Source: Tsukamurella sp. 1534
GTDB lineage: Bacteria; Actinomycetota; Actinomycetes; Mycobacteriales; Mycobacteriaceae
DNA length: 64,000 nucleotides
Direction: 5' to 3'
Assembly: GCF_000312385.1 (NCBI RefSeq)
Contig: NZ_HE997628.1
Coordinates: 516,843-580,842, forward strand
The translations under genes were made by a program, and so were the position numbers. Below are positions 2,916-19,021 of the stretch, piece after piece. How positions within the stretch are numbered: the first letter of the stretch is position 1; every line of letters starts with the position of its first letter. Below the pieces are notes generated by a model, which worked only from the letters and a program-made list of their open reading frames with translations, made no database searches and was not told the DNA's origin.

Positions 2916-4642
<1,727 letters not shown>

Positions 4643-4652
4643 TCCGGTTCCG

Positions 4653-4664
4653 TACACTCGTCCC
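4653..4664 (+). promoter_or_regulatory. Leaderless promoter before PH-domain gene
   Basis: TACACT (4653-4658) matches the actinobacterial -10 pattern TANNNT. It is followed by exactly 6 nt and then GTG 4665, so transcription would start at the start codon. No ribosome-binding site is visible. Confidence 0.45.
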
Positions 4665-5123
4665 GTGATGACCGACGCCGCCACGCAGCCCACCTTCGAG
4701 GCCAGTCCCCGCAAGATCAAGATCTACGCGTGGGCCGTGGCCATCGTGCTCATCGTGGGCCACGGCGCCGTCGGCCTCTCGCTCACGATGGGCGGCGACA
4801 CCGGGCCGCTGTTCCGCACGTCCGACAAGATCGGCATGGCGCTGATCGGCGTGGTCCTCGCGGGTGGGGCGCTGCTCTTCACCCGGCCGCGGCTGCGGAT
4901 CGGGCCCGACGGGGTGGCCGTGCGCAACCTGCTCAACGAGAACACCTACGGCTGGGACGTGGTGCAGGGCTTCAGCTTCCCGAAGGGCACCGCGTTCGCC
5001 CGGCTCGAACTGCCGCAGGACGAGTACGTGTCCGTGTGGGCGATCCAGGCCCGCGACGGTGAACTCGCGGTCCAGGCCATCGCCCGGGCCCGCGAGCTCT
5101 CCGACATCTACCGGCGGGGCTAG
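4665..5123 (+). CDS. PH-domain membrane protein
   Basis: 152-aa protein with two predicted membrane helices (about residues 20-42 and 57-75), followed by a compact domain that starts RLRIGPDGVAVRNLLNE. This has the look of the bacterial PH (bPH2/YdbT-like) domain annotated in mycobacterial homologues found directly after ribH (Rv1417 in M. tuberculosis, from memory). The W in NTYGWDVVQGFSF fits the PH fold. Function is unknown. Starts are GTG 4665 or ATG 4668; a leaderless -10 box favours either. Its stop codon abuts the stop of the convergent aldehyde dehydrogenase gene with no spacer. Confidence 0.8.
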   Translation: MMTDAATQPTFEASPRKIKIYAWAVAIVLIVGHGAVGLSLTMGGDTGPLFRTSDKIGMALIGVVLAGGALLFTRPRLRIGPDGVAVRNLLNENTYGWDVVQGFSFPKGTAFARLELPQDEYVSVWAIQARDGELAVQAIARARELSDIYRRG

Positions 5124-6617
5124 CTACTTCTCGATCGTGCCCGTGCGGCCGTGCAGCAGCGTCATGATCTGCGCGAGCTGTCCCTCCTGCGCGGCGGTGC
5201 GGGCGAAGCTGGTGAGGTTGAGCAGAGGCGTGAACCGCTTGCGCGCGATGCCCTTGGCGTAGGTGAACTCGCGCAGCCCGTCCGGCCCGTGGATGCGGCC
5301 GAAACCGGAGTCCCCGACGCCGCCGAACGGCAGGCTGGGGACGCCGGCGAAGGTGATGATCCCGTTCACCGCGGCCATCCCGGAGCGGATCCGGTCGGCC
5401 AGCTCCATCCCGCGGGCCTTGGAGAACACGGTCGCTGCGAGGCCGTACTTGGTGGCGTTCGCCAACTCGATCGCGTCGTCCATCGACTCCACCCGGGCGA
5501 CGGTGACCGTGGGCCCGAACGTCTCCTCGGTCACGGCCAGTGAGTCCTCGGGCACGTCGACGAGCACCGTCGGCTGGACGAACCGGTCGCCGACCGCGTC
5601 GACTCCGCCGACCAGGGCGCGGCCGCCGCGCGCGAGGGCGTCCTCGATGTGCGACTTGATGATCGGCAGCTGGCCCGGCATGGTGATCGGGCCGATCTGG
5701 GACTCGTCGGAGGCGTTCGCGGTGACGTCGCGGGCCTTGGCCACGAGCTTCTCCAGGAACGGGTCGTAGACGTCCTTGTGCACGTAGACCCGCTCCACGC
5801 CCACGCACGTCTGGCCGGCGTTGGCGAAGGCGCCCCAGGCCGCGGCGTCGGCGGCCGCGTCGAGGTCGGCGTCGCGGTCCACGAGGAAGGCGTCCTTGCC
5901 GCCGGCCTCGATGACCACGGGGGTGAGGGTCTCGGCGCAGGCCGCCATGACCTTCTTGCCGGTGTTGGTGGAGCCGGTGAACGCGACCTTGTTCACTCCG
6001 GACGTGCACAGCGCGTTGCCGGTGGGGCCGAGGCCGGTGACGGTCTGCAGCACGGGGCGGCCCACGGCCTCCTCGAACGTGCGAGCCAGCCACACCCCGA
6101 CTCCGGGGGTGTACTCGGACGGCTTGAACACCACGGCGTTGCCCGCGGCGAGGGCGTACGCGATGGAGCCCATCGGGGTGAACACCGGGTAGTTCCACGG
6201 GCCGATCACGCCGACCACGCCGAGCGGGTGGTAGCGCACCGTCGAGGCCTGGTTCGCCATGAGCAGGCCCGAGGACACCTTCCGCGGGCCGAGCACCTTC
6301 TTCGCGTGCGAGGCCGCGTACGCGAGGTGGTCGATCCCGAGGGAGGCCTCGAGCAGGGCGTCGCCGTGCGGCTTGCCGGTCTCGTCGTGGATGATCTGCG
6401 CCAGCTGGTTGATCCGGCGGGTGATCACGCCCTTCCACTTGTTGAGCTGGTGCTTGCGGCCCTCGAAGCCGAGTTCCTGCCACCAGTCGGCCTGCTCGCG
6501 GGCGCGCGCCACCACGGCGTGCACGTGGTCGGTGGAGTGGACGGGGTAGGTCTCGACCACGTCGCCGGTGCGCGGGTTGATCGAATCGAACGTGGCGGTC
6601 TGCTCTGATGCGGTCAT
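5124..6617 (-). CDS. NAD(P)-dependent aldehyde dehydrogenase
   Basis: 497-aa aldehyde dehydrogenase that oxidises an aldehyde to the acid. The general-base Glu lies in VIEAGGKDAF, the catalytic Cys in NAGQTCVGVERV, and the NAD-fold segments GPWNYPVFTP and AFTGSTNTGKK are intact. The C-terminus is longer than in soluble ALDHs and ends in a hydrophobic tail (LLNLTSFARTAAQEG), as in class-3-type enzymes that act on fatty aldehydes. The ATG at 6615-6617 overlaps the stop of the upstream GMC oxidoreductase gene (ATGA), so alcohol oxidation and aldehyde oxidation are coupled. Substrate is unknown; long-chain aldehydes are my inference. Betaine aldehyde is less likely because the sequence does not look like BetB. 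Confidence 0.88.
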   Translation of the reverse strand: MTASEQTATFDSINPRTGDVVETYPVHSTDHVHAVVARAREQADWWQELGFEGRKHQLNKWKGVITRRINQLAQIIHDETGKPHGDALLEASLGIDHLAYAASHAKKVLGPRKVSSGLLMANQASTVRYHPLGVVGVIGPWNYPVFTPMGSIAYALAAGNAVVFKPSEYTPGVGVWLARTFEEAVGRPVLQTVTGLGPTGNALCTSGVNKVAFTGSTNTGKKVMAACAETLTPVVIEAGGKDAFLVDRDADLDAAADAAAWGAFANAGQTCVGVERVYVHKDVYDPFLEKLVAKARDVTANASDESQIGPITMPGQLPIIKSHIEDALARGGRALVGGVDAVGDRFVQPTVLVDVPEDSLAVTEETFGPTVTVARVESMDDAIELANATKYGLAATVFSKARGMELADRIRSGMAAVNGIITFAGVPSLPFGGVGDSGFGRIHGPDGLREFTYAKGIARKRFTPLLNLTSFARTAAQEGQLAQIMTLLHGRTGTIEK

Positions 6618-9772: not shown

Positions 9773-10780
9773 TCAGCGCAGGAGGTTGGTGCGCGCCACC
9801 TGTTCTCGGAGGAAGTGGAATTGGGTGTCCAGGCTGGCCTGGAGGTCCCGCAGTTCGTCCGCGTGTTCCTGGAAGCGCCGGGCGTCGGCCTCGTTGCCGA
9901 CGGCGTCCCGGTACAGCTGATCGAGCAGCTCGCGGTGGGCGCCGGTGGCGGTGCGGTCGAGGAGCTGCAGGTCGTGCAGGAGGCGCTCGACGGGGCGCAG
10001 CTCGCCCAGGTACTCGGCCAGCGCGGCCACGTGGTCGCGCAGCGCGTTCTCGGCCATCCGGGCCGCGGTCGCGTATTCGTCCAGGTGCTCGGCCAGGGCG
10101 CTCGTCACCGGCGAGTCGCCCGACGGGCGGGGCGTATCGGTCCGGAGCCGCCACACGCGGTAGGCGCGGTGGCTGATGTCCTGCAGCGTGGCGTCCAGGT
10201 TGATCCGCACGCGGTGCTGGTCGAGGATCGGGTTGTTCCACGCCGGGGAGCGGCGGACCTCTTCGGCGAGCAGGACCGCGATGCCCAGCAAGCGGGTCTC
10301 GACCCGGGTGCTGCCCGGTTCCGCGTCGGGGTTGTACGCGGGGGTCCGGTCGGCCTGGAAGGGCCAAGGGTTCTGCGCGAGGCGCCGTTCCTCCGCCTCC
10401 TCGCGCTGCTGCGCGCGTCGCTGGTTCTGCCAGATCCGGTACCCGGCGGCGCCGCCACCGGCGATCAGCAGGCCGATGAACGCACCTGTCATCGACGACG
10501 TGACGGCGGCGCCCAGAACGAACACGGCCGCGAGTGCGATGACCAGCCCCATCGGGCTGATGCGCGGCCCCGTGTCCGGTGGGCGCAGTCGCGCCAGGTA
10601 GGCGGGGTTGTTGTTCGCGGTGTACCGCCGATAGGCGTCGTCGACCGTCATCGGCGATATGGACTCGAGGAAGCCGGAGGCGTCGCGGGCGGCGAGCTGC
10701 GCGTGCTCGCGGCCGACGGTGACCCCCTCCGCCGCCGCGGCGACTCGCACCGCGATCTCCTGTGGGACGCTGTCCGCCAT
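9773..10780 (-). CDS. Hypothetical membrane protein with long helical C-terminus
   Basis: 335-aa protein of unknown function. Residues about 75-112 form two close hydrophobic segments (GLVIALAAVFVLGAAV and MTGAFIGLLIAGGGAAGY). After them comes a charged, mostly helical cytoplasmic region rich in Ala, Glu, Arg and Leu that may form coiled coils (for example ALAEHLDEYATAARMAENAL). The start at 10778-10780 is supported by a strong GGAGGAGG site; an earlier in-frame start at 10840 lacks one. It is adjacent to the accessory island but shows ordinary high-GC codon use. No family was recognised. Confidence 0.75.
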   Translation of the reverse strand: MADSVPQEIAVRVAAAAEGVTVGREHAQLAARDASGFLESISPMTVDDAYRRYTANNNPAYLARLRPPDTGPRISPMGLVIALAAVFVLGAAVTSSMTGAFIGLLIAGGGAAGYRIWQNQRRAQQREEAEERRLAQNPWPFQADRTPAYNPDAEPGSTRVETRLLGIAVLLAEEVRRSPAWNNPILDQHRVRINLDATLQDISHRAYRVWRLRTDTPRPSGDSPVTSALAEHLDEYATAARMAENALRDHVAALAEYLGELRPVERLLHDLQLLDRTATGAHRELLDQLYRDAVGNEADARRFQEHADELRDLQASLDTQFHFLREQVARTNLLR

Positions 10781-11222
10781 CTCGAACCTCCTCCTACCTA
10801 CCCCCGAATGTACCGACGTTTCAGGCCTCCGCGCCGCCACGGTCGCGCCACAGTGCAGTCAGCTCGACGGGCGCCCATCCGGGCCAGCGGGCGACCCGAG
10901 GGGAATGCCCTGGACGCACTCGGCGACGATGGCGGGCCCGTTCCGCCGGGAGTCGTCGTAGAACGCGGCGGTGGTCGCCGCTTCCACCGCTGTTGTCACC
11001 AGTGCCCAGACGACGGTGGCGTTCGCGGATCTTGGCCTCCGGTACGTCGTGCTCCCGGCGATGACACGATGCGCGACGCGCTGGTCCCGCGGTGTCGGCG
11101 TCGCGCGGCGCGGCTCGTCTCCGTGGCGCCGGGTAGTACGCTCGCCCCAGCGGTTCGACGGAACTCTCGTACAGGGCAGATCCCCTCCGCACGATCATTC
11201 GTGCTGCCCTGGGGGATGTTGC
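10781..11222. other. 442-bp gene-free boundary of the accessory island
   Basis: No intact gene is recognised here. The minus strand holds a possible frameshifted coding remnant (see the separate entry). The plus strand ends in a purine-rich stretch that leads to the GTG of the helicase gene; TAGTACGCT at about 11132 could contain a -10 element. No tRNA, integrase or direct-repeat attachment site was seen. Confidence 0.5.
10821..11040 (-). pseudogene. Possible frameshifted gene remnant
   Basis: Two overlapping minus-strand frames each look coding over part of their length. One reads ANATVVWALVTTAVEAATTA, then AAFYDDSRRNGPAIVAECVQ and GIPLG, with strongly G/C-ending codons, and then runs out of sense at a stop at 10859. 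In the next frame RVARWPGWAPVELTALWRDR continues to a stop at 10821. A single-base shift near 10895-10905 would join them into one C-terminus. The 5' end is unclear and no family was recognised. It may instead be chance open frame in GC-rich DNA. Confidence 0.3.
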
Positions 11223-13097
11223 GTGACCTATCTGCGGGTGACCGCGGACCGACTGCTCGACGAATACGACGCGCAGTCGCTCGTGGAGACGCTGCTGGAG
11301 CGCATGCTGTTCGAACGCGGGATCACCGTCGGCGACGCGGAACAGCGCGCCTGGAGCAACAGCCTGCCGAAGCTCGCGGCCGACCTCCGGCAGGGTGGCC
11401 TAGGCGACGTCGAGATGCTCATCGAATACAAGCTGCCGCTGACGTCGCGGCGTGCCGACGTGGTGCTCGCCGGGATGCACCCGGGCACCGGCGCACCGTC
11501 GTACGTGGTGGTCGAGTTGAAGCAGTGGTCGTCGGCGACGGCCTTCGAGGACGATCCGAACCTCGTCTCCGTACCGCACATCGGTGGTCCGCTCCTGCAT
11601 CCGGGGGCGCAGGTGGCGGGGTATTGCGAGTACATCGGTGACTTCGCGCGCGTCCTGCGCGACCACGAGGACGCGCTCGCGGGGATCGCCTACCTGCACA
11701 ACGTGACGGAGCCCGGGGCGGTCTCCGATCTCCGCTCCTATCCGATCACCACGACGGGGCGCATGTTCACCGGTGCCGACACCGACGCGATGTTGAGCTT
11801 CCTCCGCAGCCGCCTCGCGCCCGGGGTCCGCGGAGGCGCCGCGGCGGACGCCCTGCTCAACTCACCGGCCGCCCCGTCGCAACAACTCCTCGCGGTGGCG
11901 GCCCAGGAGGTGCGCGACCGGCAGGTGTTCCATCTGCTCGGCGAGCAGCGACTCGCCGTCGATACCGTCCTGCACGACGTGGAACGGGCACGGGCAGCGA
12001 ACACCAAGCGGGTTCTGGTGGTGACGGGCGGTCCAGGCAGCGGAAAGAGCGCGATCGCCCTTGCCGTTCTCGGCGACCTGGCGCGCCGTGGACGGACGGT
12101 GCTGCACGCCACCGGTTCACGGTCGTTCACGACGACGCTGCGACAGGTCGCCGGTCACCGGGCCCCGCGAGTCAAGAGCCTCTTCAAGTACTTCAACCAG
12201 TTCATCACAGCGGCCCCCAACGAGATCGACGTCCTCATCCTCGATGAGGCCCACCGGATCAGGGAGACGTCGGCGAACAGATTCACCAAGGCGGAGAACA
12301 GGACCGGGCGGCCGCAGGTCGACGAGCTGATCTCGGCGGCCCGCGTTCCGTTGTTCCTCCTCGACGAGCATCAGATCGTGCGGCCGGGCGAGCTCGGATC
12401 GCCAGCACAGATCCGTGCGTACGCGGCCTCGCTCGGACTCGAGACCGTGCACATCCGCCTCGACGACCAGTTCCGCTGCGGGGGAAGCGAGCGGTACGTC
12501 GAGTGGGTGCTCGATCTCGTGGGACTCGGCGGCCGCGAGCCGTGGGTATGGCGCGGCGACGGCGACTTCGACGTCCGGGTGGCGGAGACGCCGTGGGACC
12601 TGGAGCGTTCACTCGACGAGAAGCGCACACAGGGATATTCGGCGCGGATGACGGCCGGATACTGCTGGACGTGGAGCGACCCGACTCCGGAGAAGACATT
12701 GATCCCGGACGTGCGGATCGGCGACTGGGCGCGGCCGTGGAACTCGAAGTCGGAGAGGCGTATCGGCGACGCCCCGCCGTCACAGCTGTGGGCGACCGAG
12801 GAGGGCGGATTCGGGCAGGTGGGCTGCGTGTACACCGCGCAGGGATTCGAATACGACTACAACGGCGTGATCCTGGGGCCCGACCTGGTGTGGCGCGACG
12901 GCCGACTCGTGGTTCGGCGCGACGAGAACAAGGACCCGAGCCTGAAGTCGAAGAAGAACCTCACGGACGTCCGGTTCGACCTGCTGATCCGCAACACCTA
13001 CAAGGTGCTGCTCACGCGCGGAATGGCGGGCACGGTCCTGTACTCACCCGACGAAGAGACCCGCGAGGCGCTTCGGCGCCTCGTGCAACCGCAGTAG
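11223..13097 (+). CDS. PD-(D/E)XK-like nuclease fused to Schlafen-group-3 (DUF2075) helicase
   Basis: 624-aa two-domain protein. Residues about 60-105 resemble a restriction-nuclease core: an acidic E68, then RRADVV with D79, then a beta-strand ending VVVELKQW with E98 and K100, which is the D...ExK pattern. Residues about 262-610 form a P-loop ATPase/helicase of the DUF2075 type: Walker A TGGPGSGKS (268-276), Walker B LILDEAH (D341, E342), and later QFRCGGSERYVEWV, GQVGCVYTAQGFEYDYNGVI and IRNTYKVLLTRGMAGTVLYS, the canonical C-terminal helicase signatures. GTG 11223 gives the first convincing residues (YLRVTADRLLDEYD); its ribosome site is weak. The EVE-HNH nuclease gene follows 78 nt later on the same strand. 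A role in phage defence is inference; the family itself has no settled bacterial function that I know of. Confidence 0.85.
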   Translation: MTYLRVTADRLLDEYDAQSLVETLLERMLFERGITVGDAEQRAWSNSLPKLAADLRQGGLGDVEMLIEYKLPLTSRRADVVLAGMHPGTGAPSYVVVELKQWSSATAFEDDPNLVSVPHIGGPLLHPGAQVAGYCEYIGDFARVLRDHEDALAGIAYLHNVTEPGAVSDLRSYPITTTGRMFTGADTDAMLSFLRSRLAPGVRGGAAADALLNSPAAPSQQLLAVAAQEVRDRQVFHLLGEQRLAVDTVLHDVERARAANTKRVLVVTGGPGSGKSAIALAVLGDLARRGRTVLHATGSRSFTTTLRQVAGHRAPRVKSLFKYFNQFITAAPNEIDVLILDEAHRIRETSANRFTKAENRTGRPQVDELISAARVPLFLLDEHQIVRPGELGSPAQIRAYAASLGLETVHIRLDDQFRCGGSERYVEWVLDLVGLGGREPWVWRGDGDFDVRVAETPWDLERSLDEKRTQGYSARMTAGYCWTWSDPTPEKTLIPDVRIGDWARPWNSKSERRIGDAPPSQLWATEEGGFGQVGCVYTAQGFEYDYNGVILGPDLVWRDGRLVVRRDENKDPSLKSKKNLTDVRFDLLIRNTYKVLLTRGMAGTVLYSPDEETREALRRLVQPQ

Positions 13098-13175
13098 CGA
13101 AACGAGCTCGGCCCGACAGGCTTCCGCTGAGGACATGCCTCCACCCGATGCGAACCTCTGGAAGGCGCATGGGCG

Positions 13176-14042
13176 ATGACGGCGTGGCTCCTGTCGATCA
13201 GTCGGAAATTCCCCCAACACCTGCAGTACGCGATGGAGAAGGGGTTCTGGGACATGAAGGAGGCGGCGGACGTTCGACGCGGCGACGAGCTGTATTTCCG
13301 GCTCTCCCGGGCCTCGCTCGTCGGGGTGCTACGAGCGACGAGCGACATGTACCAGAGTGACTCGGCGGGCCGATTACTTCAGGACGCGAATCCGACCTGG
13401 GACGGTGGCGGACCGTACGCGGCGCGCGTCGACGTCGAGCCCGTCAGCGTCACATCCGTTCGGCAACCCGGCTACGAAACGTTGCTCGAAGAGGCCGGCT
13501 ACAAGCGCACCTACACGATGGGACTCACCCGGGTACTCCCTGTTCGTCGTGCTGCCGGCCAGCAGTTTCTGCGTAGCTGCTTCTTCTACGGCTCAGCTGT
13601 CGACCTGTCTCCTGAGCCGGTGACCCCGCATCTCTTCACGACGGGGCCGGTCCACCGGAGGACTGTGGAAGTCGCCAGTCGTGAAGGGCAGGACCTTTTC
13701 CGGGAGAAGCTGCTGGACGCGTATGGAGGCAGGTGTGCGCTCAGCGGTACCGCGGTCGAAGGGACTCTGGATGGCGCGCACATCATCGAGCACCGCGACA
13801 ACGGCGTGAACGAATGCTGGAACGGGCTCCTTCTGCGTGCGGACATTCATCGCCTTTTTGATCGGTCATTGATCAGGGTGAGATCGCGGGGCCGCATCGA
13901 AGTGGACCTATCACTCGCCGGAACCGAGTACGCGACGTTCACCCGGCTGCGTCAGCCCCTGAAGGCGGAAAATCAGCCGTTGCGGTCGGCGTTCGCACAC
14001 CGGTGGGTGCACAAGAACGGCCGAGACCTCGCCGACTTCTGA
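13176..14042 (+). CDS. EVE-domain HNH endonuclease (likely modification-dependent)
   Basis: 288-aa protein. Residues 1 to about 125 look like an EVE/PUA-like reader domain: WLLSIS at the start, KGFWDMKEAADVRRGDELYF (W25, GDE), LVGVLRATSDMY, then NPTWDGG and a beta-strand RVDVEPV. Residues about 175-285 are an HNH_2-type nuclease: CALSGTAVEGTLDGAHIIEH (H202), NECWNGLLLRADIHRLFD (N216, H225). The combination matches EVE-HNH enzymes, known to cut DNA that carries modified cytosine. The base composition is visibly less GC-rich than the flanks, suggesting transfer. ATG 13176 is the first start compatible with the EVE fold. Domain calls are from motif reading. Confidence 0.85.
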   Translation: MTAWLLSISRKFPQHLQYAMEKGFWDMKEAADVRRGDELYFRLSRASLVGVLRATSDMYQSDSAGRLLQDANPTWDGGGPYAARVDVEPVSVTSVRQPGYETLLEEAGYKRTYTMGLTRVLPVRRAAGQQFLRSCFFYGSAVDLSPEPVTPHLFTTGPVHRRTVEVASREGQDLFREKLLDAYGGRCALSGTAVEGTLDGAHIIEHRDNGVNECWNGLLLRADIHRLFDRSLIRVRSRGRIEVDLSLAGTEYATFTRLRQPLKAENQPLRSAFAHRWVHKNGRDLADF

Positions 14043-14120
14043 AGCGCGCGGTGGGGGCGCCACCGACTCCACCTGTCAGACCTCGGCGATACCGTTCGGG
14101 CATCGTCGAGGGGAGTCACG

Positions 14121-14792
14121 ATGGCAGGCCACGAATCGCTACGCGCGCAACTGATCATCCCGCCCGATCGTGCGGCCACGTACCTGCGTGCGATGGACAT
14201 CGAGGTCTCCGCCATCCATCGGGCGGTCGCCGCGGGTGATCGCGCCGCGGCCACGATGAGCGCAGATCCGTACGCCCCCGCGTTCGCCTCCGGGATGAGC
14301 AGGTGGATCGCGGTGGTCTCCACCCTGCGCAGGTCTCTCGCCGAGACGGGACTGTGGGTGCCCGACGAGAGGTCCAATCAGCCGATCAGTCGACACCTGC
14401 GGAGCGGGCGCACTCTCGCCGTCTTCAGCGGGGATCCGGCCACGGGAAACGCGGAGAACGCCTTCGGCCCGCGGGCGGTGCACCGCAAGGGCGCGGCCAC
14501 CGCGAGGTCCCTCGAACCGGAGGAGCCGCTCATCTCCCTCGAGTCCCTCCTCCCGGCGAGGCCCACCGCGACAGCGGCCCTCACCGGGGCTTGGGTCCTG
14601 CTGTACCGCGACATCGGAGGAGCCGTCCGCCTCGAGGTCTCGCAGCCCACGGGATTCGACCGGGACGAGGGGCAGTACACGGGCTGGGCCGTCCGGGTGA
14701 TCCTGGACGAATGGTCGCCCGGCGATCAGGCCCACCCGCCGCTCTTCCCGGCCCTCGCGATCGACTTCCAGGCAGGAGGTGTCGCGGCGTGA
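14121..14792 (+). CDS. Unknown protein, third gene of the island
   Basis: 223-aa protein with no family recognised. The start is well supported: AGGGGAG lies 7 nt before ATG 14121. The N-terminal half is helical (RAATYLRAMDIEVSAIHRAV). The C-terminal half has beta-like segments (GAWVLLYRDIGGAVRLEVSQ, YTGWAVRVILDEW). No signal peptide, membrane helix or nuclease motif is visible. It lies 78 nt behind the EVE-HNH gene on the same strand and may belong to the same unit. It ends 6 nt from the stop of the convergent monooxygenase gene. Confidence 0.7.
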   Translation: MAGHESLRAQLIIPPDRAATYLRAMDIEVSAIHRAVAAGDRAAATMSADPYAPAFASGMSRWIAVVSTLRRSLAETGLWVPDERSNQPISRHLRSGRTLAVFSGDPATGNAENAFGPRAVHRKGAATARSLEPEEPLISLESLLPARPTATAALTGAWVLLYRDIGGAVRLEVSQPTGFDRDEGQYTGWAVRVILDEWSPGDQAHPPLFPALAIDFQAGGVAA

Positions 14793-14798
14793 TCGCCG

Positions 14799-16163
14799 TC
14801 AGCCCGCCGCGGCCGCCGCCGGGGGAGCGGTCGCCGGCGCGAACGGGTCGGCGGGCAGTTCGAGATGCTCGCGCAGCGTCGAGCCGGTGTACTCGCGCCG
14901 GAACAGCCCGCGCCGCTGCAACTCCGGCACCACGAAATCGACGAAGTCGTTGAACGTGCCCGGCGAGCTGGCGGCGGAGAGGATGTATCCGTCGGCCTCG
15001 CCGCCGGTGAAACCCTCTTCGATCTGATCCGCGATATCGGACGCGGTGCCCACGAATTGGGGGAGCAGCACCCCCTGCGCGTACAGCTTGCCGATGTCGC
15101 GCAGCGTCAGGTTGTCGCGTTCGGAGAGGCGGCGCGCCACGTCGAACAGCCCCTGCGTCCCGCCGACGGTCACGTCCTCCACCGGCTTGTCCAGGTCGTA
15201 CTGCGAGAAGTCGTGGTCGGTGTGTACCGACAGCGTGATGAGCCCCGAGATCGGGTCGGCCAGGTCGTTGTGGAAGGCCTGCTTCTCCCGGGCGATGGAC
15301 TCCGTCTCGCCGACGAACGGGATGAACGAGGGAAAGATCTTCACGTCCTCCGGGCGGCGCCCGAAGTTCTCGGCCCGCGATTTCACGTCGTCGTAGTACG
15401 CCCGCCGCCCCTCGGGCGTGGGGTCGATCTCGAAGATCGCCTCCGCCCAGCGCGCCGCGAAATCCTTCCCGCGGTTGGACGCGCCCGCCTGGATCAGCAC
15501 CGGCCGCCCCTGCGGCGACCGCGGCGTGGGCAGCGGGCCGCGCGTGCGGAAATGCTCCGAGGCCCGGTCCACCACGCGGATCCGGGCGGGATCGGCGAAC
15601 ACCCCGGACTCCTTGTCCTGCACCAACGCGTCGGGGCCCCACGACTGCCACAGCTCCACCGCGGTCTCCACGAACTCCTGCGCCCGCACGTACCGCAGGT
15701 CGTGTTCCAGGTGCTCGTCGTGCCCGAAGTTCAGCGCCTCCGATTGGCTCAGCGAGGTCACGATGTTCCACGCGATCCGGCCGCGCGTCACGTGGTCCAG
15801 GCTGGAGAGGATCCGTGCCAGTTCGAACGGGTGGAAGTACGTGGTGGACTTGGTGATCGCGATCCCCAGCCGGCTGGTCACCGCGCCGATCGAAGCCGCC
15901 ACGATCGAGGGATCCAGCGTGGCCGAGGCCTGCGTCCCGCGCCGCAGCGATTCGTCGATGTCGTCGCCGAACCGCGTCGGCACGGACAACAGGTCCGCGA
16001 AGAACACGAAGTCGAACTTCCCGCGCTCCAGGATCCGGCCGATCCGGTGGTAGTACTCCGGTGTGAGGAAGGCCGGATCGGAGGCGGGGTGCCGCCACGC
16101 CGCGTGCGAATGCGTGACGTGCGAGGCGATCTGGAATCCGCCGAGATGCAACTGCCGGGCCAT
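14799..16163 (-). CDS. FMN-dependent LLM-class monooxygenase (NtaA/SnaA/DszA family)
   Basis: 454-aa flavin monooxygenase that uses reduced FMN from a partner reductase. Diagnostic segments are LHLGGFQIASHVTHSHAAWR at the N-terminus, RGKFDFVFFADLLS, LAITKSTTYFHPFELARILS-like strands and RGRIAWNIVTSLSQSEALNFG, all typical of the nitrilotriacetate/dibenzothiophene-sulfone subfamily. Such enzymes open C-N or C-S bonds in xenobiotics, sulfonates or aminopolycarboxylates; the substrate here is unknown. Start ATG 16161-16163 has a GGAAGGA site. No flavin reductase gene is next to it. The C-terminus ends in an Ala/Pro-rich tail (PATAPPAAAAAG). Confidence 0.9.
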   Translation of the reverse strand: MARQLHLGGFQIASHVTHSHAAWRHPASDPAFLTPEYYHRIGRILERGKFDFVFFADLLSVPTRFGDDIDESLRRGTQASATLDPSIVAASIGAVTSRLGIAITKSTTYFHPFELARILSSLDHVTRGRIAWNIVTSLSQSEALNFGHDEHLEHDLRYVRAQEFVETAVELWQSWGPDALVQDKESGVFADPARIRVVDRASEHFRTRGPLPTPRSPQGRPVLIQAGASNRGKDFAARWAEAIFEIDPTPEGRRAYYDDVKSRAENFGRRPEDVKIFPSFIPFVGETESIAREKQAFHNDLADPISGLITLSVHTDHDFSQYDLDKPVEDVTVGGTQGLFDVARRLSERDNLTLRDIGKLYAQGVLLPQFVGTASDIADQIEEGFTGGEADGYILSAASSPGTFNDFVDFVVPELQRRGLFRREYTGSTLREHLELPADPFAPATAPPAAAAAG

Positions 16164-17179: not shown

Positions 17180-17359
17180 GACGAATCCTTTCGTGGCGCC
17201 GGCCGACGGCGCCGTCACGATCGGAACGTATCGGCCCGAACCGGCCGCGCGGCTGTGATCCGGCTGCGGACTCGCTGTGCGCGGCGCAGCTCGTGGTCGC
17301 GCGCCGCGACCTGGCCGAAACGGGACCGCGGACCGTCGGGCATGCGGTACGCATGGTCC

Positions 17360-19021
17360 ATGACCGAGCGGATCCTGCCCCTGACTTCGACGATGCAAGA
17401 CGAGCACCTGTCGCTCGCGACGCTGCTCCGGCACGCGACCACCTGGTACGCGGACGCGGCCGAGGTCGCGACGTGGACGCCCGAGAAGACGACGAGGATG
17501 AGTTTCGGGCAGCTCGGAGTGGAAGCGGCCAAGCTCGCCAACGCCCTGACGTCGCTCGGCGTCACCCCCGGCGATCGCGTGGGCACGTTCCAGTGGAACA
17601 ACAACGAGCACATGACGGCGTACGTCGCGATCCCCGCGATGGGCAGCGTGCTGCACACCCTCAACATCCGGCTGTTCCCGAACCAGGTCACGTTCATCGC
17701 CAACCACGCCGAGGACCGGGTGATCATCGCCGACGGCAGCCTGATACCGCAGCTCAACGCGGCGCTGGGCGGCATGACGACGGTGAGGCACATCGTGATC
17801 GTGGACGGCGACACCGGCGCGGTCGAGGCGCCCGCCGGCGTGGAGGTGCACGACTACCGGCAGCTCGTGGACGCGCAGTCGGGCGAGTACGACTGGCCCG
17901 AGATCGACGAACGCGCCGCGGCCGCAGCGTGTTACACCTCGGGCACCACCGGTGACCCCAAGGGCGTCATGTACAGCCACCGCAGCATCTGGCTGCACTC
18001 GACCGCGGTCTGCGCCAGCTACGGCCTCGCGATGGGCCCGTCCGACACCGTGCTCCCGATCGTGCCGATGTTCCACGCGATGAGCTGGGGCACCCCGTTC
18101 GGCGCACTGATGTCCGGCGCGTCCCTCATCCTTCCGGACCGGTACCTGCAGCCCGAGCCGATGACCCGCCTGCTCGCCGAGGAGAAGCCCACGATGTCCG
18201 CCGCGGTGCCCGCCGTGTGGATCGGCATCGTGAACCACCTCGAGACGCACCCGCAGGACATCAGCCACCTGCGCCACATCGCCTGCGGCGGTTCCGCTGT
18301 CCCGCTCAGCCTGGCGAAGACGCTGCAGGAGAAGCACGGCGTCCAGATGGTGCAGGCGTGGGGCATGACGGAGACCTCCCCGCTGGCCAGCATCGCGTGG
18401 CCGCCCCGCGGTGTGGACGGCGACGAGGCCTGGCGGTACCGGAACACCCAGGGCCGCTTCCTTCCCGGCGTCCAGGGCCGACTCGTGGACGACCTGGGCC
18501 AGACGGTGCCCGCCGACGGCGTCTCGCAGGGCGAGGTCCAGGTGCGGGGCCCGTGGATCACGGGCAGTTACTACAGCCCGGAGGGCGCGGAACCGGTGGG
18601 CGCCGACAAGTTCGAGGACGGCTGGCTGCGCACCGGCGACATCGGCAAGCTCACCGAGGACGGCTACGTGACCCTGGTCGACCGGTCCAAGGACGTCATC
18701 AAGTCCGGCGGCGAATGGATCAGCTCCGTCGAGCTGGAGAACGAGGTCATGGCGCACCCGGCCGTGCTCGAGGCCGTCGCGATCGGCGTCCCCGACCCGA
18801 AATGGGACGAGCGCCCGCTGGTCGCCGTCGTCCTGCAGCCGGGCCGGACTGTGACCGTGGCCGAGCTGCGGGAACACCTTTCGGGCAAGTTCGCCAAGTG
18901 GCAGATCCCCGACACCTGGTCGTTCATCGCCGAGGTGCCCAAGACCTCGGTGGGCAAGTTCGACAAGAAGGTGCTCCGGGCTCAGCACGCCGACGGCCGC
19001 CTGGACGTCCGGACCGACTGA
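17360..19021 (+). CDS. Acyl-CoA ligase (long/medium-chain fatty acid AMP-binding)
   Basis: 553-aa ANL-superfamily enzyme that activates a carboxylic acid as acyl-AMP and then acyl-CoA. Motifs are in order: the P-loop [17 protein letters not shown], the gate region [23 protein letters not shown], and the C-terminal hinge [16 protein letters not shown] with the catalytic Lys in TSVGKFDKK. The layout matches FadD-like ligases. ATG 17360 is preferred; ATG 17342 (MRYAWS) is an alternative. Nothing in the neighbourhood fixes the substrate. An aromatic or fatty acid related to the divergent dioxygenase is possible. Confidence 0.92.

Follow-up and report, generated by a model that had tools for sequence, protein, structure and literature searches.

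In a 64,000-nucleotide stretch of the Tsukamurella sp. 1534 genome (contig NZ_HE997628.1, positions 516,843 to 580,842; hereafter the window), two adjacent genes are proposed to form one anti-phage module, a reading to which we give a probability of about 0.6. Gene 1 (11223..13097, + strand) encodes a 624-residue protein that joins an N-terminal PD-(D/E)XK-like nuclease part to a SLFN group 3 (DUF2075) superfamily 1 (SF1) helicase. Gene 2 (13176..14042, + strand) encodes a 288-residue protein with an EVE domain (about residues 1–137) followed by an HNH nuclease (H202, N216, H225), a putative modification-dependent endonuclease. Structured RNA leaders, related to each other but in a different version for each gene, would gate the translation of both. 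The proposal is supported by the domain make-up of the two proteins, their recurrent pairing, the defence-hotspot setting, and the conservation, covariation and restriction to these genes, in the genomes scanned, of the leaders. The two proteins would act jointly in defence, one of them reading modified bases, and the leaders would be switches that answer to a signal.

Genes 1 and 2 recur as a pair

The initial annotation proposed a defence island of three same-strand genes, with a nuclease-helicase next to an EVE-HNH nuclease as a combination that it did not know as a named system. The three open reading frames (11223-13097, 13176-14042 and 14121-14792) are all retained as genes by a codon-usage caller built for this analysis. 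The island itself stands for genes 1 and 2 and falls for the trio, gene 3 being discussed in the last section.

The combination of nuclease-helicase and EVE-HNH protein is indeed a recurrent one. Among 16 genomes of the genus, six carry gene 1: four as whole copies (the window included), one in two pieces, and one as remnants. In the five of these that have more than remnants, gene 2 lies right behind gene 1. Across the wider family, it is directly downstream in 16 of 30 gene-1 loci, a count that includes L051, which lacks the N-terminal part, and L038, which has a fused start. The pairing is tighter when viewed from gene 2. Of 401 genomes examined, 25 family genomes have a match to gene 2 at E <1e-50 (partial in G298, G230, G009 and G153), and in 21 of these 25 the distance from gene 1, whole or broken, to the gene 2 behind it is at most 300 bp. 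The four exceptions are G251, where the distance is 2.8 kb, and G065, G153 and G230. Further afield, at least 578 loci were found, and the best 80, all named, span many families of actinobacteria. In 11 of these 80 a full EVE-HNH gene directly follows gene 1, and in 18 an HNH-cluster protein is present somewhere in the stretch. Records of Rhodococcus erythropolis (L062) and Gordonia hydrophobica (L059) are among those that carry the pair.

Several of these numbers weigh against a single module. Gene 1 is without gene 2 in 14 of the 30 family loci, so gene 2 is not essential to gene 1. A full-length EVE-HNH gene is not directly downstream in 69 of the 80 wider loci, some of which end at contig edges. 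The neighbour found most often is a MazG-like gene, which lies near gene 1, on either strand, in 38 of the 80 loci (two representatives were checked by Pfam), and none is present among the called genes beside gene 1 of the window. Genes 1 and 2 might be independent defence genes that share a hotspot, with adjacency reflecting only the clustering of genes in defence islands. Such independence would agree with the 14 loci lacking gene 2, with the four genomes of 25 in which gene 2 is not beside gene 1, and with the much faster divergence or exchange of gene 2 relative to gene 1. It would not explain why order, strand and a short gap are conserved across orders, nor why both genes carry one leader family seen at no other place in the scanned genomes. 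We consider it unlikely, and favor a single module.

The MazG-like gene immediately follows gene 2 in three loci (L086, L103 and L124). Separately, large helicase-like genes with similar sequence starts lie near gene 1 in L073, L077, L083, L091 and L100; the one in L073 has DUF3427, ResIII and PLD-like domains by Pfam.

Two versions of a leader precede the two genes

The gene-1 leader (11146..11222, + strand) ends at the GTG start codon. Its layout across loci is CGGCCCGACRGRCUUCC, a hairpin of variable length, GGACAYGYCCCCACCC, a hairpin GCACGA-N-UCGUGC, then UGCCYGGGG at the Shine-Dalgarno position, and the start codon. In the window, the leader comprises the P2 region, the inner hairpin GCACGA-UCAU-UCGUGC and the Shine-Dalgarno sequence GGGGG. 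The gene-2 leader (13109..13175, + strand) has the same 5′ core and a different 3′ half; the core is present in all 22 gene-2 loci displayed.

A loose text pattern finds the leader at 102 of 110 gene-1 loci. Most of the 58 rows that make up a covariance model, R1, come from the 80 loci described above. It matches before gene 1 in 77 of these 80, most by construction. The window is among the 58 rows, and its gene-1 leader is likewise matched by construction (11158-11227, 54.8 bits). The gene-2 leader of the window gives a weak R1 match (13115-13188, 18.1 bits, E 0.032) and is also matched by the exact pattern.

Whole-genome searches place the leader at genes 1 and 2. Of 151 family genomes, 24 have R1 matches, which lie at gene 1 or at what is left of it. 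With an exact core pattern, 24 of 201 family genomes give 34 matches in all; by comparison of positions, 19 stand ahead of gene 1 and 15 ahead of gene 2. A class-wide pattern gives 29 matches in 24 of 335 genomes: 27 stand ahead of a gene 1, be it the usual, a tandem or a broken copy, and two ahead of genes in the gene-2 slot. These scans are independent of any choice of loci for the leader, but the patterns were derived from the leader loci under study and the 201- and 335-genome samples overlap; the reversed patterns gave no match in either scan. The exact patterns are strict, missing the gene-1 leaders of G000, G004 and G008 that R1 finds, and of 45 genomes in the class-wide sample that contain gene 1 (E up to 1e-60), 23 have a pattern match. 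In G065, where gene 2 is away from gene 1, gene 2 still has the leader. No R1 match was found around three distant DUF2075 homologues (L208-L210), and the strict pattern has no exact match in the viral contigs searched. Found nowhere else in the genomes scanned, the leaders appear to mark genes 1 and 2 as one system.

A known RNA family was considered for the leaders and rejected. A search of window positions 10800-14900 with the 4227 Rfam families, at E up to 10, returned nothing at the gene-1 leader and, at the gene-2 leader, a single chance-level sucC row that overlaps the first 12 bases (17.3 bits against a gathering threshold of 50, E 4.3). At the gathering threshold, no Rfam family matched in 10 loci.

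The leader as RNA, operator or ligand

The leader is most likely a cis-acting RNA. In the gene-1 leaders, helices P2 and P3 have standard pairs in 98.0% of cells, and four pairs show double changes, in 12 cells. Both the number of paired cells and the covariation score are higher than in any of 500 shuffles, and in slid controls no more than 49.5% of cells are paired. In the 21 aligned gene-2 leaders P2 is paired in 100% of cells. The apical hairpins, of which 47 are unique, vary in sequence and length and fold better than shuffles (mean z -1.15, Wilcoxon p 5e-11, uncorrected for kinship). A competing helix, P4, formed with the Shine-Dalgarno region, is paired in 94.6% of cells and has two covarying pairs. 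One of the alignments (A9) includes a 27-base fragment of the window as an extra first row, which is a gap in nearly all pairs.

Other features of the same alignments count against a regulatory RNA. P3 shows next to no variation, which could also be true of a DNA operator. The RNAalifold consensus fold has only a small covariation term (-0.28). One P2 pair is an A-C mismatch in 12 of 74 unique leaders. In the gene-2 leaders, only one of the seven P2 pairs varies (A-U in 18, G-C in 3). Finally, the window's own gene-1 leader is only mildly more stable than its shuffles (z -1.5).

These features invite the view that the leader is no regulatory RNA and is instead a DNA operator, the palindrome GCACGA-N-TCGTGC being bound by a repressor. 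The near invariance of the inner dyad across many families, the small covariation term and the position directly before the start codon would all suit an operator. The compensatory changes in P2, present in the gene-1 leaders and at one pair in the gene-2 leaders, would not be expected of it. Nor would P2a hairpins that differ in sequence and length yet keep their pairing, gene-2 leaders that lack the exact dyad and retain the 5′ core, or the overlap of the element with the Shine-Dalgarno sequence. We regard the operator as quite unlikely.

A second possibility is that the leader is a functional small RNA or an RNA ligand of the gene products, such as an effector cofactor, a guide or an RNA antitoxin, rather than a translation switch. 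There is precedent in AbiF, an abortive-infection system with RNA-based regulation, as described in the part of the article available (PMC12373285). The sequence of the leader is also conserved beyond what pairing requires, and among the genomes scanned it is limited to the system of genes 1 and 2. Against this count the end of the leader at the start codon, the Shine-Dalgarno region as one of its pairing partners, and the two different versions ahead of the two genes. This possibility is reckoned to be about as improbable as the operator, and a cis-acting control of translation is preferred.

Gene 1 is a probable DNA-cutting helicase

The helicase assignment of the initial annotation is confirmed. 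Residues 262-610 match the SLFN-g3 helicase family PF09848 over the full length of the model (Pfam E 1.1e-86), the sequence contains a P-loop, GGPGSGKS, at 269-276 and a DEAH box at 341-344, and fold searches match this part to SLFN11, RecD2 and others.

The nuclease assignment, a PD-(D/E)XK-like core with D79 and E98-x-K100, stands in part. In a PD-(D/E)XK nuclease, the motif D...E-x-K is carried by three strands followed by a helix. The AlphaFold2 model of gene 1, with a predicted local distance difference test (pLDDT) score of 89.1, has predicted strands at 64-70, 77-85 and 92-100 and a helix at 127-141, so that the D...E-x-K residues sit in a three-strand core followed by a helix, as the pattern requires. 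Residues D79, E98, K100, Q130 and Y134 are invariant in 69 of 69 aligned proteins. One alignment (A2) omits L033, which has a stop inside gene 1. What speaks against the assignment is the lack of a match to a solved nuclease. Sequence search finds no match to the nuclease part among solved structures, and the fold search is filled by helicases, in rows covering mainly residues 136-624. Taken together, the sequence features point to gene 1 as a probable DNA-cutting helicase.

In loci L089, L111 and L127 and in genomes G469, G569, G608 and G655, a paralogue of gene 1 stands in tandem as a second copy, behind a leader of its own. Gene 1 of L056 is 79% identical to that of the window. Relatives of gene 1 occur in four of 50,697 phage records; three span at least 80% of gene 1, and all are below 60% identity. 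One of the four records, a 9 kb unannotated faecal sequence, has a gene-1 relative that is 57% identical over 97% of the protein.

Gene 2 is an EVE-HNH protein in an apparently exchangeable slot

The prediction that gene 2 encodes an EVE-HNH nuclease is likewise upheld. HNH_2 is found by Pfam in 15 of 15 family members, and H202, N216 and H225 are invariant in alignments of 15 and of 12 rows. The Pfam match to EVE is weak, occurring in five of the 15 members and not in the window's own protein. Fold searches back the EVE-HNH architecture, with an EVE/PUA-like fold at the N-terminus, and the best match among solved structures is VcaM4I. Because of this relation to VcaM4I, it is plausible that gene 2 reads modified cytosine.

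Gene 2 varies far more than gene 1. Over 22 loci, mean pairwise identity is 72% for the gene-1 helicase, 61% for the gene-1 nuclease part, 46% for HNH and 33% for EVE. The difference is sharpest between close relatives: gene 1 versus gene 2 identity is 94% versus 39% for L103 and L124, 88% versus 34% for L036 and L043, and 83% versus 38% for the window and L002, and DNA identity drops at the junction of the two genes. L030 and L034 keep both genes alike (95% for gene 1, 91% for gene 2). L036 and L043 are sisters in gene 1, and their sisterhood in gene 2 is rejected by the approximately unbiased (AU) test (p 4.9e-5). The same test does not reject a single gene-2 clade for the three Ornithinimicrobiaceae (p 0.29). 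The four gene-2 copies of the genus form one side of a weakly supported branch (38/81 and 37/37 in two trees). Gene-2 exchange is thus established for L036 and L043 alone; elsewhere the contrast in identity suggests exchange, with fast change as the alternative.

G544 has another protein in the gene-2 slot behind a leader (L212, 3324-4670). It starts like an EVE domain, matches SRA weakly and differs at the C-terminus, where a PD-(D/E)XK-like motif was read by eye. Because gene 2 varies between close relatives and in G544 while gene 1 is constant, gene 2 looks like an exchangeable reader-nuclease slot behind gene 1.

Proposed mode of action

The arrangement suggests a division of labor. Gene 2 would act as a type IV-like endonuclease: its EVE domain would flip an altered base into a pocket and read it, and the HNH domain would cut nearby. 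Gene 1 would be an ATP-driven nuclease-helicase that processes DNA, either after cuts made by gene 2 or on another cue. Each gene would be translated behind its own version of the leader. The leader strand GCCY could pair either with the upstream (R)GGC, forming P2, or with the purines of the Shine-Dalgarno sequence, forming P4. Given this alternative pairing, the leaders most likely keep translation of both nucleases low until a signal frees the ribosome site. Low translation is what would be expected because of the danger of self-damage. The releasing signal is probably tied to infection or DNA damage.

More broadly, and only tentatively, the pair may represent an actinobacterial RNA-gated two-nuclease immune system, in which a single undescribed family of RNA switches, present in two versions ahead of the two genes, ties translation of a constant nuclease-helicase and a swappable modified-base-reading nuclease to infection. 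The leaders would raise the question of how bacteria restrain dangerous nucleases until they are needed, and the apparent exchange of gene 2 while gene 1 stays constant suggests that DNA modifications are the object of an arms race. RNA leaders common to separate defence genes would also offer a sequence tag by which members of a system can be found by their regulation rather than by adjacency. Being short and conserved, the leader lends itself to direct tests of function with reporters.

The pair occupies a variable defence hotspot

The site is bounded on the left by a gene (9773..10780, - strand) that is present in all 16 genus genomes. On the right are a gene at 14799..16163 (- strand), which we take to encode an LLM-class (luciferase-like) monooxygenase-like protein, and an outer gene at 17342..19021 (+ strand), presumably for an acyl-CoA-ligase-like protein. 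In the relatives, the slot between these flanks ranges from empty to heavily loaded. G013 has no cargo, the outer right gene adjoining the left flank directly; in G007 the LLM-class gene lies nearly against the left flank; and G003 has a decayed gene 1. G001 carries a type I restriction system and Mrr, and G005 and G014 have similar genes by eye. In G008, on the side of the flank where genes 1 and 2 lie, there are matches to PglW, PglX, PglZ, BrxD and BrxHI, a set that we take to be BREX type 2. In G009, JetA and JetD, presumably of a Wadjet system, stand beside a broken gene-1/gene-2 pair.

A comparison outside the genus agrees. In 18 gene-1 regions of other family genera, 83 neighbour proteins match 76 PADLOC families at E up to 1e-20, versus one for 103 control proteins encoded 300 kb away from gene 1 in each of these genomes; the 76 families are overlapping models with at most three proteins each among the 25 listed, and the distinct proteins may be far fewer than 76. 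The comparison uses 18 of 20 test and 18 of 20 control regions, with 20 of 170 control genes missing; 29 gene-1 and gene-2 homologues were removed from the test regions, and control genes overlapping 3500-5500 were excluded. To summarize, the co-occurrence with known defence genes that an island would predict is found both in the slot contents of relatives and in the PADLOC counts, and the site is a variable defence hotspot between core flanks.

Relation to known systems

Both protein families are known. By its sequence, the pair would combine type IV-like restriction with a nuclease-helicase and an RNA element that lacks an Rfam family. The published systems are compared here as the available parts of the cited articles describe them.

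VcaM4I is an EVE-HNH type IV endonuclease that flips the base into the EVE pocket (PMC7897488). Gene 2 resembles it in the order EVE then HNH, in having it as the best fold match along the whole protein and in the conserved HNH residues. The sequence profile matches only about the C-terminal half, and gene 2, unlike VcaM4I, sits behind a SLFN helicase-nuclease gene and an RNA leader. EVE-HNH and EVE-PD-(D/E)XK proteins have been named as putative type IV enzymes (PMC7641849). A word search of the main text of that article gives no occurrence of DUF2075, Schlafen or MazG, and no RNA leader is mentioned in the portion available.

Gene 1 resembles Nhi (nuclease-helicase immunity; PMC12904381) in combining a nuclease and a helicase in a single protein. 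Its match to the PADLOC Nhi profile (E 4.4e-7) covers only residues 259-390; the architectures may be alike more widely. Gene 1 also has a distant match to the PADLOC candidate PDC-S41 (E 3.2e-16), which we take to be a single-gene candidate. Schlafen-family RNases have been noted beside BREX systems (PMC12839542); gene 1 shares with these the Schlafen name and the defence setting, whereas they are RNase-type and gene 1 has the SLFN helicase part. MazG is among predicted, unvalidated defence domains (PMC13092281). Neither the pairing of genes 1 and 2 nor the RNA leader was found in the open-licence literature among the matches listed, and the available parts of the literature searched give no link between DUF2075 and defence.

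Gene 3 is an RmrT homologue carried independently

Gene 3 (14121..14792, + strand; 223 residues) had been described as unknown. It matches PADLOC RmrT, the toxin of RosmerTA, at E 2.8e-36. RosmerTA consists of RmrA and RmrT (PMC10440598, available part), and unlike that system, the window copy has no RmrA (ImmA-type) antitoxin gene adjacent to it, its neighbours being gene 2 and the LLM-class gene.

The three genes were considered as a unit, and this was rejected. A conserved trio, sought in the genus genomes, does not recur; the pair does. Twelve of the 16 genus genomes have gene 3, some of them lacking gene 1, and in none of the other four with the gene-1/gene-2 pair does it adjoin gene 2. 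In relatives, it usually lies beside genes that we take to be dioxygenase-like and acyl-CoA-ligase-like; the window copy is elsewhere. It would be possible to see all three as one system with the RmrT-like protein as a suicide effector, as gene 3 is on the same strand as gene 2 and separated from it by a 78-bp gap. Identity of the window copy to seven copies from the genus is also no more than 52-55% (to L026 it is 47%, to L028 33%), and because of this divergence and its different position, it may have come with the pair. The separation of gene 3 from gene 2 in the other four genomes, its presence in genomes that lack gene 1, and the absence of a leader before it by the R1 model argue otherwise. 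A three-gene system is therefore judged very unlikely, and gene 3 is placed outside the pair.

G012 has an RmrT-RmrA pair (L028, 1480-3238), in which the gene after the RmrT homologue matches RmrA clearly (E 1e-120). In G010, an RmrA-like gene lies near the hotspot flank (L152, 2441-3439).

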